Assembly: GCF_030268085.1 (NCBI RefSeq)
Contig: NZ_BSDE01000002.1
Span: 434,001-498,000, forward strand
Length of the DNA stretch: 64,000 nt
Direction of reading: 5' to 3'
Origin: Geothrix limicola
GTDB taxonomy: Bacteria > Acidobacteriota > Holophagae > Holophagales > Holophagaceae
Shown here: in pieces, positions 46,473 through 58,525 of the stretch
Position numbering within the stretch: the first letter of the stretch is position 1
Layout of the letters: every line of letters starts with the position of its first letter
The notes under the pieces: model-generated
Databases searched by the model: none
The model's input: only the letters and a program-made list of their open reading frames with translations
What the model was told of the DNA's origin: nothing
Program-made: the position numbers and the translations under genes

Positions 46473-49400
46473 ATGCTGGATTCCGGAAGCGCCATGCCCT
46501 CACCCCATTCCCTTCACCTACGGCCCACTTGGGCGGCCCTGGCCGCCTTCGCGTTGGCTGCGCAGGCGCACCTGGGAGAGGACGACCTTCAGCTTGAAAC
46601 GCAGGCTGGAGGCCAGGTTCGACACATTTCGATCGACCCTTCAACCTTCGGATCCGCCGCGGAACTCGCGCAGATCCTCGGCGAAAGCCTAGACCCGGCA
46701 ACCCTAAATTTCGAGATCCGAGGCTGGGCCGCATCGGGCGGAGCGGTGCTATCGGGGCGCCTCGATATCTCGGATCTCCGCGCCGAACGGAGCCTCACTC
46801 CGGGATCCAGCCTCTGGATCTCCCGCCACGTCCAGCGCCTCTTCGAGGCTCTCACCCAGTCACCCGAGACTCCCTGCGAAGACTTGTCCATGCTGGATTC
46901 CGAAGAGCGGGCCCTGCTTCTGGGGGCCTTTTCAGGACCGGCCCACGATCCCGGCCTCACACGCGCAGAGACCCTGCCCCGGATCTTCGAGGAAACGGCG
47001 CGCCTCCGCCCCGACCTTGCGGCCCTCGAGGTGGATGGCCGCACGCAAACCTATGCGGAGCTGGAAGCCGAAGCCGAGCGGATCGGCCGCCAGCTTCAAG
47101 CCTTGGGTCTAGGCCGCGGGTCGCTCGTCGGGCACTGGTTCCCCCGCGGTGGCGGCGCCCACGCGGCCCTGCTCGGCATCCTGAAGGCGGGCGCCGCCTA
47201 CGTGCCCCTGGACCCGGACCTGCCGCCGGCCCGCCTGCGCCAGGTGGTCGTGGAATGCCGCATGGACCTGCTGCTGACGCCACGTTCCCAGGGCGCCAGC
47301 CTCGATCTGCCCTGCCCGCGCCTCGACCAGGCCGTGGACGTCGAGGAGGCACGCGTCACCCTTCTGCCCGTCGACCCCAGTCCAGATGGCCCCAGTCCCG
47401 ACGATCTCGCCTACGTCATCTTCACGTCGGGTTCCACGGGCACGCCCAAGGGCGTGCCCATCACGCACCGCTCGGCCTGCACCCTCGTGCGCGCCGAGCA
47501 GCGCCTCTTCGCCGTCACGCCCGGGGATCGCGTGTTCCAGGGATTCTCTCTGGCCTTCGACGCCTCCGTGGAGGAGCTGTGGCTGGCCTGGGCCAATGGG
47601 GCCTGCCTGGTGGTGGGCACCAAGGCCCTGATGCAGTCCGGGCCGGACCTGGGCAGGCGGCTGGGCGAGTTGGGCATCACCGTCTGGTCCACCGTGCCCA
47701 CCCTCCTCGGCCTCCTGAACGACCCCGTTCCGACCCTGCGCCTGCTCATCCTCGGCGGCGAGGCCTGCCCGCCGGATCTGGTCGCACGCTGGTGGCGGCC
47801 CGACCTGCGCATGGTGAACACCTACGGCCCCACGGAAGCCACCGTCATCTCCACCTGGACGGACCTGCATCCCGACCGCCCCGTCAGCATCGGCAAGGCC
47901 GTGCCCAACGACCGCGTGTACGTGCTGGATGCCCGCGGCCGCCTCTGCCCCATCGGCGTGCCCGGTGAGCTGCACCTGTCCGGCGTCGGCCTGTCCCAGG
48001 GCTACCTGGGCCGCCCGGAGTTGACGGCGGAACGCTTCATCCCGAATCCCTACGCCGACGGCCCCTTCACCGAGCGGCTCTACCGCACGGGGGATCGCGT
48101 CCGCTTCAACGACGACGGCGATCTGGAATTCCTCGGCCGCATCGATACGCAGGTGAAACTGCGGGGCTTCCGCATCGAGCTGGAGGAGATCGAAGCTTCG
48201 CTGCGCCTGGATCCCGCCGTGCAGGCCGCCGCGGTGACACTCTGGAAGGAGGCGGGCCCCGAGCGGTTGGTGGCCTACGCGGTGCCCAGCCCCGGCGCCT
48301 CCTTCGATGAGGAGGGCCTCCTGCGGGGCTTGAGGGAACGCCTGCCCAGCTACATGGTTCCCAGCGCCGTCGAGGCACTGGACAGCCTGCCCACGCTCGC
48401 CAGCGGCAAACTGGATCGCAAGCGGCTTCCCGCGCCCCGCCACCGCGAGCCCATCGCGGCTCCCGCGGAGGATCTGACGCCCTGTCAGCAGCGCCTGAGG
48501 GCCACCTGGACCCGGCTCTTCTCGGGCCGCGCGCCGGGTCTCGACGAGAACTTCTTCAAGGATCTGGGCGGTCACTCCCTCCTGGCGGCGGCCATGGTCT
48601 CGGAACTCCGGCGGGAGCCCGATTTCGAAGGGCTCGCCGTCTCGGATGTCTACGCCTTCCCCACCCTCCGCGCCCTCGCCGCCGAATGCGAGGCCCGGAT
48701 CTCCCATCGCAGCGCCGCACCCGCGCTCGCACAAGAACCCGCGCCGAAGGCCGCACCCTGGCGGTTCCGCGCCTGCGCCCTGGCCCAGGCCCTGTCGCTC
48801 TACCCGCTGCTCGGCTTCTACGCCCTGCAGTGGCTCAGCCCCTACCTGGTCTACAGCTGGAGCCAGGATCACGATTTCTCGCGGCGCACCGGCATGCTGG
48901 CGGCCCTCGCCTCGCTGATCCTCGTCTACCCGGCGATGTACGGGCTGTCCATCCTCGCCAAGTGGGCGCTGCTGGGCCGCATGCGGCCGGGCCGCCATCC
49001 CATCTGGGGCTTCTACTACTGGCGCTGGTGGCTCGTGCAGCGGATCGTCGCCGCCACGCCCCTGGACTACCTCGTCGAATCGCCCTGGCTGCCTCTCTAC
49101 TACCGCCTCATGGGCGCCCGCATGGGCCGGAACGTGCACCTGGGCACCACCTCGCTGGCGGCCTTCGACCTCGTGGAGATCGGCGACGATGCAAGCATCG
49201 GCCAGGACGCGCGCCTGAGCGGCTACACGCTGGAGGACGGCTTCCTCCAGATCGGTCCCATCCACATCGGGCGCCGCTGCTACGTCGGCAACCGCTCCAT
49301 CCTCTGCCCGGGAACCGTGCTGGAGGACGGCGCCATGCTGGAGGACCTGAGCCTTCTGCCGGCCGGTGCGCGCATCGCCTCGGGCCAGCATTGGACGGGA

Positions 49401-51485
49401 TCTCCGGCCCAGCCCCTGCCGCCCACCGATTCTGACCAGCAGCGCCTGTCGGTGGATCTGCCCCGGCCCGCGCCCCTGCGGCGTATGGGATATGCCGCGG
49501 CCCAGGCCCTGGGCGCCTTCCTCATCCCCGTCGCCTTCCTCGCGGCCATCTTCCCGGGCCTGATCCTCATCAACGAGCTCTACGCGAACACCTCCGGCTA
49601 CTTCGCCTACCTGGTGGTGGCGCCCGCCGTGGGCCTCTCCTTCGTCGTGCTGCTGGCCCTGGAGATCGCGGCCGCCAAGTGGCTGCTGCTGGGGCGCGTG
49701 CGGCCCGGCACCTACGACCGGCAGGGCCCCTTCATCCTGCGCAAGTGGTTCGTGGATCGCCTCATGAGCCTGGGTCTGGACCTGCTCGCGCCGCTCTACG
49801 CGACCCTCTACCTGGCGCCCTGGTTCCGCCTCCTCGGCGCGCGGCTCGGCGCCTGGGCCGAGGTGTCCACGGCGGGTTCGGGATGTCCCGACCTGCTCGA
49901 TATCGGCGAAGAGAGCTTCATCGCCGATTGCGTCTCCTTCGGCCCGCCGCGGGTGGACCTGGGTCGCGTCACCCTCGCGCCCACGCGCGTGGGGCGCCGC
50001 GCCTTCGTGGGCAACAGCGCCCTCATCCCCTCAGGCACCACGCTGGGCGAAAGCGTGCTCGTGGGCGTGATGTCGGTGCCGCCCGTCGATCCGCTCGAAG
50101 CCGCCCGCGTGGACAGCTCCTGGCTCGGGTCCCCGGCCATCTACCTGCCACGCCGACAGGAGAGCTCCGCCTTCGGCGAGGAAACCACCTTCCGTCCGCC
50201 GCGCCGGATGATCCTGCTCCGCGCCTTCATCGAGCAGTTCCGCGTCATCGCCCCCGTCACGGGTTTCGTCGTCATCACCAGCCTGCTGCTCACGGCCATG
50301 ACCGAGATTGAAGAGGCCTTCTCCCTGAAGGTCGCGGCCCTCTCCCTGCCGGCCCTGTACTTCCTCGGCGGCCTGCTCGCCTGCTTCTTCGTGGTGGCCG
50401 TGAAGTGGCTGGTGATCGGCTTCTACCGCCCCAGCGAAAAGCCCCTCTGGTGCAGCTTCGTGTGGCGCACCGAACTGGTGAGCGGGCTCCATGAGAACCT
50501 GGCGGACTCCTGGCTGCTGCGCCTGCTGGTGGGCACGCCCTTCGTCCCCATCTACTTCCGGCTGCTGGGCTCGCACATCGGGCGCCGGGTGTGCATGGAA
50601 AGCACCTGGCTGACGGAGTTCGACCTCGTGAGGATCGGCGATGGGGCCCAGCTCAACGCGGATTGCACGGTCCAGACCCACCTCTTCGAAGATCGCGTGA
50701 TGAAGATGGACCGCATCGAGATCGGCCCGGGATGTTCGCTGGGGACGGATTCGGTGGTGCTCTACGGATCGCGCATGGAGGCGGGCTCCGTGCTGGGCGA
50801 CCTGTCCCTGCTCATGAAGGGGGAGTCGCTGCCGGCCGGCACCCGCTGGGAAGGCTCACCCGCGCGGCCCTCTAGCCGTCCGACGCCTCCCGCCCCGGCG
50901 CTGCCGGCGGCTCGCGAAGGCGCCGGGGGCGGGATCCACGTCTTCATCCAATCAGACACGCAACCTCATGCGCTGCCCGCCGAACTCGCCGATCAAGTGA
51001 TCCTGCTGAATCCGGATCCGCAGGGGCGGCCCCGGGCCATGGATGGCGAAGGCCGCCCCCTGACCATCAGCCGTTCCCGGGCCCTCGGCGTGCAGGTGCT
51101 CGCCCTGGCCGAAGGGGGCCGCCTCGGCGTGGATCTGGAACGGCTCCGCCCCTCCGAGGCCCTCCAGGCCGCCTCGAAGGCCTTCCTGCCCGCCGAACGG
51201 GACTGGGCCGATCGACAGCCTGAACCCCGATGGAAGGCCCTGCTCCGCCTCTGGACGGCCAAGGAAGCGATCCTCAAGGCCCTCGGCCACGGCTTCGCCA
51301 CGGGCCTGGATCAGGTGGAACTCGGCCCGGATGGGCGGGGCGGCCTCAAGCTCCTGCGGCTCTTCGGCCGGGAAGCGCTGGCCGAGGGCTGGCACCTCGA
51401 ATGCCGGGAACACGAGGTGGAAGGGCGGACCTACCTGCTGGCCCTGGCCAGGGCGACACCCTCCGTGGCCTCAACGGGTTCTTGA
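46473..51485 (+). CDS. Pls-like membrane non-ribosomal peptide synthetase with fused C-terminal phosphopantetheinyl transferase
   Basis: A 1670-residue single-module synthetase. Residues 1-155 are a poorly recognised lead-in whose end (SMLDSEERALLLGAF) resembles the tail of a condensation domain. The adenylation domain spans about 160-655 (YVIFTSGSTGTPKG near 313; YGPTEAT; LYRTGDRVRF; GKLDRKRL). A carrier domain follows with FFKDLGGHSLL, its Ser near residue 701. Then three repeats of two membrane spans plus a left-handed beta-helix-like domain occupy about 760-980, 1005-1225 and 1250-1465, the six-span, three-domain plan of Streptomyces epsilon-poly-lysine synthetase. The last 185 residues are an Sfp-type transferase: LGVDLERLRP (1550) and WTAKEAILKALGHG (1594). 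The eye-read pocket code resembles lysine. ATG 46494 is an alternative start. Product unproven. Confidence 0.88.
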   Translation: MLDSGSAMPSPHSLHLRPTWAALAAFALAAQAHLGEDDLQLETQAGGQVRHISIDPSTFGSAAELAQILGESLDPATLNFEIRGWAASGGAVLSGRLDISDLRAERSLTPGSSLWISRHVQRLFEALTQSPETPCEDLSMLDSEERALLLGAFSGPAHDPGLTRAETLPRIFEETARLRPDLAALEVDGRTQTYAELEAEAERIGRQLQALGLGRGSLVGHWFPRGGGAHAALLGILKAGAAYVPLDPDLPPARLRQVVVECRMDLLLTPRSQGASLDLPCPRLDQAVDVEEARVTLLPVDPSPDGPSPDDLAYVIFTSGSTGTPKGVPITHRSACTLVRAEQRLFAVTPGDRVFQGFSLAFDASVEELWLAWANGACLVVGTKALMQSGPDLGRRLGELGITVWSTVPTLLGLLNDPVPTLRLLILGGEACPPDLVARWWRPDLRMVNTYGPTEATVISTWTDLHPDRPVSIGKAVPNDRVYVLDARGRLCPIGVPGELHLSGVGLSQGYLGRPELTAERFIPNPYADGPFTERLYRTGDRVRFNDDGDLEFLGRIDTQVKLRGFRIELEEIEASLRLDPAVQAAAVTLWKEAGPERLVAYAVPSPGASFDEEGLLRGLRERLPSYMVPSAVEALDSLPTLASGKLDRKRLPAPRHREPIAAPAEDLTPCQQRLRATWTRLFSGRAPGLDENFFKDLGGHSLLAAAMVSELRREPDFEGLAVSDVYAFPTLRALAAECEARISHRSAAPALAQEPAPKAAPWRFRACALAQALSLYPLLGFYALQWLSPYLVYSWSQDHDFSRRTGMLAALASLILVYPAMYGLSILAKWALLGRMRPGRHPIWGFYYWRWWLVQRIVAATPLDYLVESPWLPLYYRLMGARMGRNVHLGTTSLAAFDLVEIGDDASIGQDARLSGYTLEDGFLQIGPIHIGRRCYVGNRSILCPGTVLEDGAMLEDLSLLPAGARIASGQHWTGSPAQPLPPTDSDQQRLSVDLPRPAPLRRMGYAAAQALGAFLIPVAFLAAIFPGLILINELYANTSGYFAYLVVAPAVGLSFVVLLALEIAAAKWLLLGRVRPGTYDRQGPFILRKWFVDRLMSLGLDLLAPLYATLYLAPWFRLLGARLGAWAEVSTAGSGCPDLLDIGEESFIADCVSFGPPRVDLGRVTLAPTRVGRRAFVGNSALIPSGTTLGESVLVGVMSVPPVDPLEAARVDSSWLGSPAIYLPRRQESSAFGEETTFRPPRRMILLRAFIEQFRVIAPVTGFVVITSLLLTAMTEIEEAFSLKVAALSLPALYFLGGLLACFFVVAVKWLVIGFYRPSEKPLWCSFVWRTELVSGLHENLADSWLLRLLVGTPFVPIYFRLLGSHIGRRVCMESTWLTEFDLVRIGDGAQLNADCTVQTHLFEDRVMKMDRIEIGPGCSLGTDSVVLYGSRMEAGSVLGDLSLLMKGESLPAGTRWEGSPARPSSRPTPPAPALPAAREGAGGGIHVFIQSDTQPHALPAELADQVILLNPDPQGRPRAMDGEGRPLTISRSRALGVQVLALAEGGRLGVDLERLRPSEALQAASKAFLPAERDWADRQPEPRWKALLRLWTAKEAILKALGHGFATGLDQVELGPDGRGGLKLLRLFGREALAEGWHLECREHEVEGRTYLLALARATPSVASTGS

Positions 51486-53249: not shown

Positions 53250-56200
53250 GTGGACGTGACGCGCTTTCTCGGCACCCACCGGTACACCTGGCTCATGGAC
53301 CTGGGCCGGGAAGAAGGCTGCAGCTGGCACCTCATGCGGCGGGAACTGGACGGCACCCGCTTCCTCGCCCAGATCTGGTCGCCCCTGCCCACGGATCGCG
53401 ACCTCGACCTCATCCGCGACACCTTCCTGGCGCGCTTCCTCGACGCCACCTCCCTGGATCCCGTCACCTGCCACGTGGGGTTCGACGGGGACCAGGCCTG
53501 GTACATCCAGGCGCTCCAGGGCACGCCGCTTTCCCGCCTCTGGGCCGGCTGGGGAGAACCCCAGCGCGCGGCCCTGATGGAGCACCTCGCGGCCTGTCTT
53601 GGGCAGGATCCGCATCCACGTTTCCTGCATCCCGAGGTCATCACCCTCCGGCCGGGCCTCTCCCAGATTCCCCGGGTCATCGGGGATTCCCCCTGGGGAC
53701 TGGAAGCCATTCCCGGATTCCTGCCCCAGACGGCGCCCGTGCCGGCCCTGTCCGAGGACCTGCCCTGGCATCAGACCCGGGACCTGTCCGAACCCCTCTC
53801 GCACCCTTTGCGCGGCCGCGGCCAGGAACTGCCCTACCTCAAGTCCCTCATGCTGGGCTTCAGCGCCCCCATCCCCATGGAGCGGATCGTCCTCCTGCAG
53901 GGCGAGGAAGGCGTGGGCAAGGAGCAACTGGCTACCTGGGCCTGCGCCGTGGCGGAGGGCGAGGGCATCTGGGTCCACCACCTGGCGGCCTCCGCCGATG
54001 AATCGCCGGGCCGCTTCCTGGGCCGCCTGCTCGAAGCCCTCCTCATGGGCAGCGAGGTGGATTTCTACGCCGAGCGCCCCCAGGCCGCCAAGGTGCTGTC
54101 CCTCCGTGTGCAGGCTTTCGCCTTCCTCACGGGGGGCCGCCACGTGAACGGGCAGGAGGCCCTGCCGGAACCCGAGGAAGTGCGGGCGGCGATGGAGGCT
54201 CTGGATTTCGCGGGCCTCCTGCACCACCGCCTCATCCATCTGTCCGGCCTGGACCGCGCCACACCCGGCGTCCTCGCGCTGATCCGGGAGCTGGTCCACG
54301 CCTCGTCCATCCCCTGGTTGCTATCTCTCACCACCGGCGCCCAGGGGGCCGGCCTGAAGCCCTTCATCGCCCAGTTGCGCGGCGAGGCCTCCGCCGCCGT
54401 CGTGGGCGTGAACCGCCTGGCGGACGAGGACCTTCGCATGGTCCTCAACGATCTGCTCGACCGCCACGATCTGCCTGAATCCTTCCAATCCGATCTGATC
54501 GCCCAAAGCCTGGGCAACCCGGGCCTGCTGCGGAATTTCCTGGAGCTGGCCCATCAATCCGGAACCCTGGCCTGGGATCGGGACCGCTGGATCCTCGCCC
54601 CGGGCCAGCCCGTGGCCCTGAAGGCCGAAGATGACCTCATGCGCCAGATCTTCCTGGGGCGGCTGCAGCGGCTGACTCCCGCTTCCGCGACCCTCGTGCG
54701 CCTGGTGGCGCTGGCGGAGCAGCCCCTGCCGACCTCCACGCTGGGACGCCTGCTCGGACTGGAAGGCGATGCGCTGGAGGATGCCCTCCATGTCGCTGCC
54801 GGGTCCCAGCTGGCGCAGCTGCATCGGGGCCAGGTCCAGATCCCCGATCCCCGCTGGCGCGAGCTGGTGCTTTCGCACACGCCCCAGCCCGAGCTCAAGC
54901 GCCTCGCACGGGCGCTGTCGGCGGTCTTCCAGGAGCAGGGCTGGAGCTGTTCCGTCCCCCTCCAATCGCTCGCTTCGGACGAGGCCACCGCCCTTGCCGC
55001 CGTGCTGGAATCGCTGGAGCACGCCCATCCCGGCCACCCGGCGGAAACGCGCCGCATCGTGGGCCAGGCGCTTCAATTGAAACCGTCGCCCAAGGACGAG
55101 GCGCGGCTGCACGAGCACCTGGCGGACGCCTGGACCTTCGGAGTCCCCGCCCCCGGCGAAACGGCCGGGCACAGTTCCTCTGAAGAGGCCCTCCTGTCGC
55201 TGGGGCGCGCCCTCGAGGCCCTGTCCCGCGCCCCCCATGACGAGGGGATCCGCCTCAAGGAGGCCCGCCTCTACCGCAAGCGAGCCATGCTGCATCTTCA
55301 TCTGCGCCACCCCGCCGAGGCCCAGGAAGCCCTTCATGCCGTGGCCGAACGCCTGGTGGGCCACCCGCATCACGCCGAACAGCCCCGCCTGCGCCTGGCC
55401 CTCGGCCGGCTGCACCTGCTCCAGGGGCACCTCGCCAAGGGGATCGCCGCACTGGAAGAGGGGCTCCACCCCGCCCAGGGCGGATTCAAGCCGCTGCCCG
55501 AGGACCAGGCCGACCTCATGCTGGCGCTGGGCCAGGCGCTGGGCGGGCAGTCTCGGTTCCTGCGCGCGGCCTCCATGCTCGAATCCGCCCAGCGGATGCT
55601 GGAGCACCGGCAGGGATTCCGGAGCCTGGTCCCCGTGCAGATCGCCCTGGCCAACGTGCGCCTGGCCCAGGGCCAATCGGAATCCAGCGTCCTCCTGCTG
55701 CGCGAGGCCCTGCAGACCGCCCGCATGCAGGGCGACACCGCCCTCCAGGCCCAGGGCCACCTCGCGCTCGGCCGCCTGCGCAGCCTGCAGCAGTTCCTCG
55801 GCCCCGCGCTCTCCCACCTCGATCGCGCCCTCAGCCGCGCCCAGCAACTGGGCGATACGGCCCAGGTGGCCCTCATCCAGATCTGGCGGGCCCGCAGCTA
55901 CGCCGCCCTGGGCGATACCGTGGCCGCCGACCACGCCCAGTTCCAGGCCCTGGCCGCCAAACCCGCCCTGATGTCGCCCGAGGAACAGGGGGATCACCTC
56001 TTCCTGCAGGGTGAAGTCGCGCGCTTCCGGAGCGCCTGGCGGGATGCGGGGCGGCTCTTCAAGGCCGCCGCCGACCACTACGAATCCACGGGCCTGGTCT
56101 GGCGCCAGAGGCTGGCCCTGCTCCGCTTCAGCCAGGCCCTGGCCCGCGAGGCCCGCCAGGCGCATCAGGCGGCCCCCGAACAGGGCTGGGCGATCCTGGA

Positions 56201-56657
56201 AAACCTGAAGGGGCTGGTCGAAGGTTCGGGATCGCGCTGGCTCGATCTGGAATGGCACCGCGCCCACGCCCTGCTGCTTTCCATCGTGCCCGCCACCGAG
56301 GCGGTGGTTCAGGAGGCCCTGGAAGCCTGGAGCGAGGTCCAGGCCGCGGCCCGGGACATGCAATTCCCCGCCCAGATCCTGGAGGCCAGCGCCGAGGGGG
56401 CCCAGCTGCTGCTGCAGCGGGGCGAGAAGCTGGGCGCCCGTGCCCGCATGCAGGACGCCTTCCCCAGCTTCCAGCAGCTCTGGACGCGGCTGCCCGCGGA
56501 ACAGGAAACGACCTTCCTCGGCCGGGAGGACATGCACCGCTTCCGGCAGACCGTGGAGGCCGTCGGCCTCAAGTTCATCCAGCCCGAACGCGCCGATCCC
56601 CTCGTGGACTGGACCCCCACCCAGATGAACCTGCCGGCCTTCCCCGATCCCGAATGA
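53250..56657 (+). CDS. STAND-like ATPase/TPR protein with degenerate P-loop
   Basis: A 1135-residue protein. Residues 1-150 have the flavour of a degenerate Ser/Thr kinase domain (WYIQALQGTPLSRLW ... LMEHLAACL) without catalytic motifs. Residues 190-480 resemble an AAA/STAND ATPase: HPLRGRGQELPYLKSLM, then VLLQGEEGVGKEQLATWA, where the P-loop Ser/Thr is replaced by Glu, and HRLIHLSGLD in place of a clean Walker B. Helical TPR-like repeats fill about 640-1080 (ALGRLHLLQGHLAKGIAALEEGL; ALANVRLAQGQSESSVLLLREAL). The only starts open in this frame are GTG 53250 and GTG 53256, with a stop at 53229-53231. A 16-codon frame from ATG 53209 ends inside the start region, so the true N-terminus may be frameshifted. 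Role unknown. Confidence 0.75.
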   Translation: MDVTRFLGTHRYTWLMDLGREEGCSWHLMRRELDGTRFLAQIWSPLPTDRDLDLIRDTFLARFLDATSLDPVTCHVGFDGDQAWYIQALQGTPLSRLWAGWGEPQRAALMEHLAACLGQDPHPRFLHPEVITLRPGLSQIPRVIGDSPWGLEAIPGFLPQTAPVPALSEDLPWHQTRDLSEPLSHPLRGRGQELPYLKSLMLGFSAPIPMERIVLLQGEEGVGKEQLATWACAVAEGEGIWVHHLAASADESPGRFLGRLLEALLMGSEVDFYAERPQAAKVLSLRVQAFAFLTGGRHVNGQEALPEPEEVRAAMEALDFAGLLHHRLIHLSGLDRATPGVLALIRELVHASSIPWLLSLTTGAQGAGLKPFIAQLRGEASAAVVGVNRLADEDLRMVLNDLLDRHDLPESFQSDLIAQSLGNPGLLRNFLELAHQSGTLAWDRDRWILAPGQPVALKAEDDLMRQIFLGRLQRLTPASATLVRLVALAEQPLPTSTLGRLLGLEGDALEDALHVAAGSQLAQLHRGQVQIPDPRWRELVLSHTPQPELKRLARALSAVFQEQGWSCSVPLQSLASDEATALAAVLESLEHAHPGHPAETRRIVGQALQLKPSPKDEARLHEHLADAWTFGVPAPGETAGHSSSEEALLSLGRALEALSRAPHDEGIRLKEARLYRKRAMLHLHLRHPAEAQEALHAVAERLVGHPHHAEQPRLRLALGRLHLLQGHLAKGIAALEEGLHPAQGGFKPLPEDQADLMLALGQALGGQSRFLRAASMLESAQRMLEHRQGFRSLVPVQIALANVRLAQGQSESSVLLLREALQTARMQGDTALQAQGHLALGRLRSLQQFLGPALSHLDRALSRAQQLGDTAQVALIQIWRARSYAALGDTVAADHAQFQALAAKPALMSPEEQGDHLFLQGEVARFRSAWRDAGRLFKAAADHYESTGLVWRQRLALLRFSQALAREARQAHQAAPEQGWAILENLKGLVEGSGSRWLDLEWHRAHALLLSIVPATEAVVQEALEAWSEVQAAARDMQFPAQILEASAEGAQLLLQRGEKLGARARMQDAFPSFQQLWTRLPAEQETTFLGREDMHRFRQTVEAVGLKFIQPERADPLVDWTPTQMNLPAFPDPE

Positions 56658-56718: not shown

Positions 56719-57582
56719 ATGAGCCACCTGCCCGCCGAATCCCGCACCCACGTCACCCTGCCCCAGCTGAACGCCTGGTACCACGCGGGACGCAAACTGG
56801 TGATGACCACCGCCTACGATGCCGTGACGGCACGCATCGCGGACGCCGCGGGGGTGGACCTCATCCTCGTGGGCGACAGCGTGGGGAACGTGTGCCTGGG
56901 CTTCGAGAACACCCTGCCCGTCAGCATGGCCATGATGAACCACCATCTGGAGGCCGTGGCCCGCACCCATCCCACGGCCATGCTGCTGGCCGACATGCCC
57001 TACCTGAGCTTCCACCTCAGCGTGGAGGACACCCTGCGCAACGCTGGGGGATTCCTCCAGCGCGGGGCCCAGGGGGTCAAGCTCGAGGGGGGCGCCAAGC
57101 GCCTGCCCATGATCCACGCCCTCATCGATGCCGAAATCCCCGTCATGGGCCACCTGGGGCTCACACCCCAGAGCGTGAACCCCATGGGCGGCTTCAAGGT
57201 GCAGGGCAAGCACAAGGGCGACGCCCTCCGCCTGCTGGAGGACGCCCAGAAGCTGCAGGACGCGGGCTGCTTCGGCCTGGTGCTCGAAGGCATTCCCGCG
57301 GACCTGGCGGCCAAGGTCACCGAAACCGTCGAGATCCCCACGATCGGAATCGGAGCCGGCCCCCAGTGTTCGGGACAGGTGCTCGTCTTCCACGACATCC
57401 TGGGCCTGCTGCCCGGCAGCTCCCCCAAATTCGTCCGGCGATATGCCGAGGGATTCGAAGACCTACGCACGGCGCTCGCCGCCTGGGCCGAGGATGTCCG
57501 GGGGGGAGGGTTCCCGGATGGCCGCGAATCCTATACCCTTCCAGAAGCCGTTCGTCCGGCTTTGACCCAGTGGCGCCCCTGA
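56719..57582 (+). CDS. panB: 3-methyl-2-oxobutanoate hydroxymethyltransferase PanB
   Basis: First committed step to pantoate, using methylene-tetrahydrofolate; 287 residues. MTTAYDAVTARIADAAGVDLILVGDSVGNV includes the Mg-binding Asp and the substrate loop. ADMPYLSFHLS, GAQGVKLEGG and PVMGHLGLTPQSVNPMGGFKVQGK are signatures, and FGLVLEGIPADLA holds the catalytic Glu. GIGAGPQCSGQVLVFHDILGL closes the barrel. It heads panB-panC-panD, with 46 bases before panC. Confidence 0.96.
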   Translation: MSHLPAESRTHVTLPQLNAWYHAGRKLVMTTAYDAVTARIADAAGVDLILVGDSVGNVCLGFENTLPVSMAMMNHHLEAVARTHPTAMLLADMPYLSFHLSVEDTLRNAGGFLQRGAQGVKLEGGAKRLPMIHALIDAEIPVMGHLGLTPQSVNPMGGFKVQGKHKGDALRLLEDAQKLQDAGCFGLVLEGIPADLAAKVTETVEIPTIGIGAGPQCSGQVLVFHDILGLLPGSSPKFVRRYAEGFEDLRTALAAWAEDVRGGGFPDGRESYTLPEAVRPALTQWRP

Positions 57583-57628
57583 AGCAGCCCTTGGTAAGCT
57601 GGCAGGCACCTTCGGAAGGATCCCGCTT

Positions 57629-58525
57629 TTGTCCATGCGAGTTGTACGTACCATCGCTGATCTTCGCGCCCTCCTCCGTCCCTTGAGGGAGGAGGGCAAG
57701 CGCATCGGCTTCGTCCCCACCATGGGATTCCTGCACGAGGGCCACGGGGCCCTGATCCGCCAGAGCGCCGCCCGCTGCGATGCGACGGTGGTTTCAATCT
57801 TCGTGAACCCCACCCAATTCGGCCCCAACGAAGACCTGGCCAGCTACCCCCGCGACCTGGAACGAGACCAGAACCTCTGCCTGGAGGCCGAGGCCACGGT
57901 GCTCTTCCTGCCCGAAGTCGCCGAAATCTACCCCACGGGCTTCCAGACCCACATCGAGCCCGGCCGCCTTGCCGAGCCCCTCTGCGGCCGCTTCCGCCCG
58001 GGCCATTTCCGGGGCGTGGCCACCGTGGTCGCCAAGCTCTTCAACATGGTGCAGCCAGACCTGGCCTTCTTCGGCCAGAAGGATTTCCAGCAGACCGTCG
58101 TCATCCGGCGCATGGCCCGGGATCTGAACCTGCCCGTGGACGTGGTGGTGGTGCCCACCATCCGCGAGGCCGACGGCCTCGCCCTCAGCAGCCGCAACAC
58201 CTACCTGGACGAGGAGGCCCGCCGCCGGGCCCTTTCCCTGAGCGAGGGTCTGATGGCCGCCAAGGCTGCCTTCGAGGCCGGGGAGCGCGATGCCCAGGCC
58301 CTCCTGGACAAGGCCCGCGGCCCCCTCAGCGCCGTGGATTCCGTGCAGTACCTGGAGCTGGTGGACACCCAGAACCTGGAGCCCATCCAGGGCCAGGTGG
58401 ATCGCACGGCCGCCCTCTGTGTTGCGGCCTATGTCGGCACCACCCGACTCATCGATAACGTCATCCTGGCCCTCACCCCCGCCGACGCCGGCCTTAGCGT
58501 AACCAGAAGCACCCAAAGCCTTTAA
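57629..58525 (+). CDS. panC: Pantothenate synthetase PanC
   Basis: Joins pantoate and beta-alanine with ATP; 298 residues. FVPTMGFLHEGHGALIR holds the HxGH nucleotide site. FVNPTQFGPNEDLASYPRDLERD binds pantoate. FFGQKDFQQTVVIRRM and LALSSRNTYLDEEAR (the KMSKS-like loop) follow. TTG 57629 has GGAAGGA eight bases upstream, whereas ATG 57635 two codons later is spaced less well; either gives essentially the same protein. Confidence 0.95.
   Translation: MSMRVVRTIADLRALLRPLREEGKRIGFVPTMGFLHEGHGALIRQSAARCDATVVSIFVNPTQFGPNEDLASYPRDLERDQNLCLEAEATVLFLPEVAEIYPTGFQTHIEPGRLAEPLCGRFRPGHFRGVATVVAKLFNMVQPDLAFFGQKDFQQTVVIRRMARDLNLPVDVVVVPTIREADGLALSSRNTYLDEEARRRALSLSEGLMAAKAAFEAGERDAQALLDKARGPLSAVDSVQYLELVDTQNLEPIQGQVDRTAALCVAAYVGTTRLIDNVILALTPADAGLSVTRSTQSL

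Follow-up and report, generated by a model that had tools for sequence, protein, structure and literature searches.

The window analysed here is a stretch of 64,000 nucleotides from Geothrix limicola (contig NZ_BSDE01000002.1, positions 434,001 to 498,000), and all coordinates given without further label are positions within it. On its forward strand lies a synthetase gene (46473..51485, +) encoding 1670 amino acids from the first ATG; the start codon is uncertain and the stop-to-stop frame spans 1677 amino acids. A Pfam scan places an adenylation (A) domain, a carrier domain and a C-terminal PF01648 domain in that order, with no Condensation and no thioesterase match in the protein. The A domain (residues 172-646; 46986..48410, +) is matched by Pfam AMP-binding and AMP-binding_C and by TIGR01733. 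It is followed by the carrier (PCP) domain (residues 688-737; 48534..48683, +; Pfam PP-binding), whose attachment serine, S702 (48576-48578, +), is present in 84 of 84 aligned rows. Beyond the carrier come a Pls/PosA polymerising membrane domain (residues 771-1464; 48783..50864, +), recognised from TIGR02353, hydropathy and an AlphaFold2 model, and a fused Sfp-type 4′-phosphopantetheinyl transferase at about residues 1485-1665 (50925..51467, +), recognised from Pfam PF01648, motifs and fold. The N-terminal ~150 amino acids (46473..46922, +) are without a Pfam match and their length differs among relatives: some of the fused relatives have the extension, as do L075 and L115, and in others it is shorter. 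When four N-terminal stretches were scanned with the Condensation profile, those of L075 (E 0.023) and L115 (E 0.049) gave weak matches at the Condensation end and those of the window and L120 gave none. The extension may possibly be a remnant of the end of a condensation domain.

Upstream of the synthetase are genes for SCO1, cytochrome oxidase subunits and a UbiA-family prenyltransferase. Downstream lie, in order, two opposite-strand frames without a Pfam match, a 1135-aa protein (53250-56657) likewise without one at E 0.01, in which a P-loop-like stretch can be made out by eye, and the two pantothenate genes panB and panC (56719-58525, about 5 kb downstream), whose products supply pantothenate for CoA, the transferase's donor substrate. 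Among the 11 same-genus loci compared, this setting is kept partly or wholly in 5 (L033, L036, L039, L042 and L052), with panB and panC near the synthetase in 4 and the 1135-aa protein in 3; the other six have none of these neighbours in the compared stretch, which for L037 is 8 kb. In Streptomyces and Corynebacterium, pls is described as forming an operon with an epsilon-PL-degrading peptidase, as PMC8117764 describes; the association is not essential to the family. No peptidase was found among the seven neighbour proteins scanned here, and three further flanking proteins are without a Pfam match. A promoter scan gave 0 matches against 0.5 in shuffles and a terminator scan 1 against 3.6, and these were not used as evidence.

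The initial annotation had read the A domain pocket by eye as D-A-E-S-I-G-T-V-I-K, and this reading stands. The four motifs on which it was based, FDASVEELW (residue 362), ITVWSTVPT (402), LLILGGEA (424) and NTYGPTEATVI (449), are all in frame in the ORF at 46473-51485 (+). In PheA numbering the pocket is D235, A236, E239, S278, I299, G301, T322, V330, I331 and K517, giving DAESIGTVIK, where we take PheA Lys517 to be the tenth code letter. A misaligned pocket was rejected: PheA residues 235-337, as used for the numbering, are identical to residues 235-337 of PDB 1amu, and an independent alignment to solved structures, 7wew and PosA among them, yields identical columns. The interval assigned to the pocket, 47530-47860, was right for nine of the ten codons (D363, A364, E367, S406, I426, G428, T450, V458 and I459; 47559..47849, +). 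The tenth code residue, K646 in GKLDRK, falls outside it at 48408-48410 (+).

If the last two letters of the bacitracin lysine code (BacB-M1-Lys) are C and K, as we presume, the window code matches it at 8 of 10 positions, as had been counted earlier. The first eight letters are printed as DAESIGSV (PMC3207962, table), and 7 of these agree. Pls (7wew) is the closer fit: 8 of 9 visible positions agree, or 9 of 10 if the tenth Pls letter, which is outside the alignment, is Lys; the aligned Pls letters are DAESIGTVV, so that the sole difference is Ile for Val at code position 9, and the aligned PosA letters are DMEHNGTVS. We took PDB 8g95-8g98 as the PosA A domain because their aligned letters agree with the published PosA code (PMC10522769).

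A search of solved structures with the whole A domain was of little use, since Pls scored level with unrelated domains. Linear gramicidin synthetase came top (505 bits, summed over two domains), the single-domain scores were 328.3 bits for McyB, 324.4 for 5u89 and 324.3 for 7wew, and in the family-profile version Pls and PosA ranked lower still. The pocket stretch (residues 340-465) was therefore searched alone, and here 7wew scored 117.7 bits, 8g97/8g95 105.3 and the next protein 58.8. Judged by shared letters, A-domain codes are degenerate: ApnA A1, presumably an Arg/Tyr enzyme, has 5 of 9 pocket letters in common with the window (read off the pocket alignment), and the ornithine enzyme PosA 6 of 10. 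Single common letters such as Glu are thus no proof of lysine. PheA matches at 4 of 10 positions and the Bdellovibrionales code at 5 of 10. Code position 2 has been described as the size position, with Ala linked to lysine, Met to ornithine and Phe to diaminopropionate or diaminobutyrate (PMC10522769), and Pls enzymes are reported to have a pocket conserved with that of the bacitracin synthetase 2 lysine domain (PMC7179176), a comparison that the initial annotation also drew on. Lysine or a close diamino acid is supported as the likely substrate by the pocket letters, the solved structures that best match the pocket region (7wew ahead of PosA) and the architecture, including TIGR02353, three lines that are partly interdependent. 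The poly-lysine-like or other diamino-acid product suggested by the initial annotation is thereby supported at the level of sequence.

We then compared relatives at 78 loci, drawn from the best 80 of 353, together with same-genus genomes. Because the patterns used to retrieve the loci came from the window protein, the set favours that protein's own branch and is not a fair sample of the family. Codes were counted over 84 distinct proteins of at least 900 aa, the window included, after ten duplicates and frames below 900 aa had been excluded. In this set (relatives from the best 80 of 353, plus the same genus) a complete pocket code was present in 82 of 84 rows, and it was DAESIGTVIK in 55 (window included), DAESIGTVVK in 11, DSECYGGVTK in 5, DFECIGTVTK in 4 and DFEYIGTVTK in 2, with five singletons. 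Going by record titles, the two commonest codes occur in Acidobacteriota, Verrucomicrobiota, Planctomycetota, Bacteroidota, Pseudomonadota and others; a lysine code by itself is ordinary for the Pls/PosA family. In a FastTree phylogeny, which has long branches and uneven composition, the Phe-type codes DFEC and DFEY sit on a separate branch. DSECYGGVTK is the code of a second same-genus paralogue of the Pls/PosA type (L043 (5225), L044 (6664), L045 (441), L046 (470) and L049 (2447)), and a search of these five loci with the transferase profile gave no match. The same code in a Bdellovibrionales enzyme is reported with modest arginine activity (PMC10522769).

The same machine might have an A domain that prefers ornithine, beta-lysine or 2,4-diaminobutyrate and so make a different cationic homopolymer, which we consider possible but unlikely. 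PosA also has Glu at code position 3 and G-T-V at positions 6-8, and its A domain binds lysine too, with lysine efficiency rising nearly tenfold in the M218A variant (PMC10522769), so that such pockets overlap. However, four code positions separate PosA from the window, the size-setting Met among them, the beta-lysine code DGESISVVNK (PMC10522769) matches at 6 of 10 positions and its pocket is not the one found here, and the Phe-type codes belong to another branch of the tree. Lysine is the substrate that we favour.

The second half of the protein places it in the Pls/PosA family. Residues 771-1464 match TIGR02353 with 683.9 bits against a curated cut-off of 423.1, covering model positions 2-695 of 695, and five segments of the polymerising region have a hydropathy of at least 1.6. 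In an AlphaFold2 model covering residues 758-1670 (26 sequences, mean pLDDT 87.2, pTM 0.75), a unit of two long helices and then a left-handed beta-helix occurs three times, giving six helices and three beta-helices, after which come a low-confidence stretch and a separate domain. The six-helix region is predicted to be membrane-inserted, and the three-fold arrangement of the model agrees with the description of the PosA model (PMC10522769). Across residues 660-1479 the window protein departs from none of the near-invariant columns listed for the 84 rows. Sequence matches between the polymerising domain and solved chains were limited to short hexapeptide-repeat stretches (42 chains, E up to 1), and in the fold search of the model the list was filled by transferase matches, with the other parts barely covered.

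The finding of the initial annotation did not include the fused transferase. This C-terminal domain matches PF01648 with 61.8 bits (Pfam), and its predicted model superimposes on Sfp (4mrt_A) over 165 residues and both lobes, with Z 15.6 and rmsd 3.1. AcpS chains align over only 104-114 residues, and the domain is therefore called Sfp-type. Its motifs are GVDLE at 1552 and WTAKEAILK at 1594. The Sfp-type signature is given as (V/I)G(I/V)D, 40-45 residues and (F/W)(S/C/T)xKE(S/A)xxK (PMC3849588). Compared with it, WTAKEAILK fits the second half, the first half is LGVD, with Leu for Val/Ile, and the spacing of 39 is one short; most fused relatives have IGVD or VGVD at the first half. There are two PF01648 matches in the window's own genome, the fused domain and a 150-aa frame, and the fused domain is the sole Sfp-type transferase detected. 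The genome also has three further carrier matches, in frames of 89-96 aa that are ACP-sized, and no condensation-domain match was found in it. In other bacteria, ACP-sized carriers are served by AcpS.

Among the 78 relative loci (best 80 of 353), 11 (10 distinct proteins) carry the transferase as a fusion and 17 have it as the adjacent gene on the same strand, downstream in 12 and upstream in 5, where adjacent means within 106 bases or overlapping, with distances taken between stop-to-stop frames. At 50 of the 78 no transferase was present in flanks of up to 8 kb, several contigs ending nearby, and within those flanks no locus had a non-adjacent transferase farther off; the transferase profile had been built from the fused domains, and distant members may escape it. 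A transferase in cis is thus not needed by the family. The 12 fused rows, including the split-frame G020, form one clade with support 100 in the Acidobacteriota (FastTree), and direct adjacency is distributed over several branches, with 8 changes for downstream and 2 for upstream positions. The side on which the transferase lies goes with pocket type in this set (best 80 of 353): all 5 upstream loci (L107, L109, L119, L121 and L123) have Phe-type pockets (DFEC.GTVTK) and all 12 downstream loci have Ala-type pockets. Three more Phe-Glu-type loci (L122, L125 and L128) and L127 (DFDC) show no transferase in the flanks. In G020, a single-contig genome, the transferase is in a different frame that overlaps the end of the synthetase frame (L036, 5938-10985), and it may therefore be a separate polypeptide there.

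PF01648 matches of at least 50 bits occur in 14 of 41 genomes of the genus. Eleven of these 14 have a synthetase over the TIGR02353 cut-off (the TIGR02353 search of the 41 excluded G060, G062 and G063), G035 has synthetase end fragments, G061 has a 70% identical copy, and in G007 the transferase stands alone, close to another A-T gene. At this last locus (L135, 5130-8594) an A-T protein (652 aa), a 224-aa protein resembling a beta-helix acyltransferase and the stand-alone 243-aa transferase stand in a row. In the drafts G027 and G031, which have the second paralogue type alone (in pieces in G031), no Sfp-type match was found, which argues against a general need for the transferase.

It could be held that the fusion is a chance product of gene order and that the transferase works chiefly on other carriers in trans, while the synthetase is primed in the ordinary way. 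As the sole detected Sfp-type transferase in a genome with three further carriers it could serve any of them, and the 50 of 78 relatives (best 80 of 353) noted above manage without one nearby. Yet those other carriers are of ACP size and the genome is without a condensation-domain match. Moreover, within the genus Sfp-type matches go together with NRPS-type genes, G027 and G031 being the exceptions, and adjacency appears on several branches of the tree, and we regard this explanation as rather improbable. That the A domain belongs to an ordinary NRPS pathway for a mixed peptide, with lysine one of several residues, is hardly credible: nearly the same code is found for bacitracin (PMC3207962), which is a product of that sort, but the genome has no condensation-domain match, the C-terminal half is the Pls/PosA domain (TIGR02353), and the scan of neighbouring genes gave SCO1, cytochrome oxidase subunits, a UbiA-family prenyltransferase and the pantothenate pair panB and panC.

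Our preferred reading is that the gene probably encodes a membrane-bound, single-module, self-priming poly-lysine synthetase of the Pls/PosA kind. In the first step, the fused Sfp-type transferase would put 4′-phosphopantetheine from CoA on Ser702 of the carrier, presumably in cis. The A domain would then activate L-lysine, with the alpha-amine bound by Asp363 and the side-chain amine by Glu367, by analogy with the crystal work on PosA (PMC10522769). Lastly, the aminoacyl-carrier would meet a free amino acid or the growing chain in the six-helix, three-beta-helix domain, where the carboxyl would be joined to the epsilon-amine, iteratively and, as relatives are described to do, with neither a condensation nor a thioesterase domain; the product would be a homopolymer. 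We give roughly even chances to the fuller proposal that a single polypeptide makes its own carrier holo in cis and then forms the lysine polymer. On this view, cationic-homopolymer synthetases of several phyla would repeatedly have become linked to a dedicated phosphopantetheinyl transferase, and the fusion would be the last stage of that linkage.

Epsilon-poly-lysine is described as an approved food preservative that is produced mainly with Streptomyces. Should this reading of the enzyme prove right, the capacity to form poly-lysine-like polymers extends to Holophagaceae and further uncultured Gram-negative lineages. A synthetase that brings its activating domain along might then be produced in standard laboratory hosts with no helper transferase added. 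Moreover, the near-invariant pocket across phyla offers a set of sequences on which to test the proposal that substrate chain length is determined by code position 2.

The proposed poly-lysine synthetase with its fused transferase is, in our reading, a variation on an established type of enzyme. Bacitracin synthetase BacB is a modular NRPS with condensation domains; its module 1, for lysine, is alike in 7 of the first eight code letters but is not a homopolymer synthetase. Epsilon-poly-L-lysine synthetase (Pls, 7wew) has the same A-T-membrane domain order (PMC8117764) and agrees at 8 of 9 visible pocket positions, whereas the window protein has Ile for Val at code letter nine, the fused transferase and the N-terminal extension, comes from a different phylum and has no peptidase among its scanned neighbours. 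The delta-poly-L-ornithine synthetase PosA of Acinetobacter baumannii shares the family, the architecture and the Asp/Glu pair of the pocket, but its pocket is DMEHNGTVSK against DAESIGTVIK in the window (PMC10522769). Purified PosA was treated with added Sfp (PMC10522769), whereas the window protein carries its own transferase. That transferase is like Sfp (PDB 4mrt) in fold, PF01648 match and the second half of the signature; it differs in having 18% identity and in being the C-terminal domain of its presumed target protein.

Built-in transferases are known from fatty-acid and polyketide synthases, and in open-access searches, with subscription papers outside their scope, we did not find one described as fused or linked to a Pls/PosA-type synthetase. 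A NAPAA (Pls/PosA-type) gene beside a PUFA-hybrid cluster and a PPTase domain in pfaBC have been described, which is not the present fusion (PMC13291983). Transferases are built into yeast type I fatty-acid synthase, bacterial polyketide synthases and the fused pfaBC, and the domain of the yeast enzyme is reported to act in cis (PMC3909215, PMC13291983). In contrast to these integrated transferases of fatty-acid and polyketide enzymes, the partner here is a Pls/PosA-type (NAPAA) synthetase.
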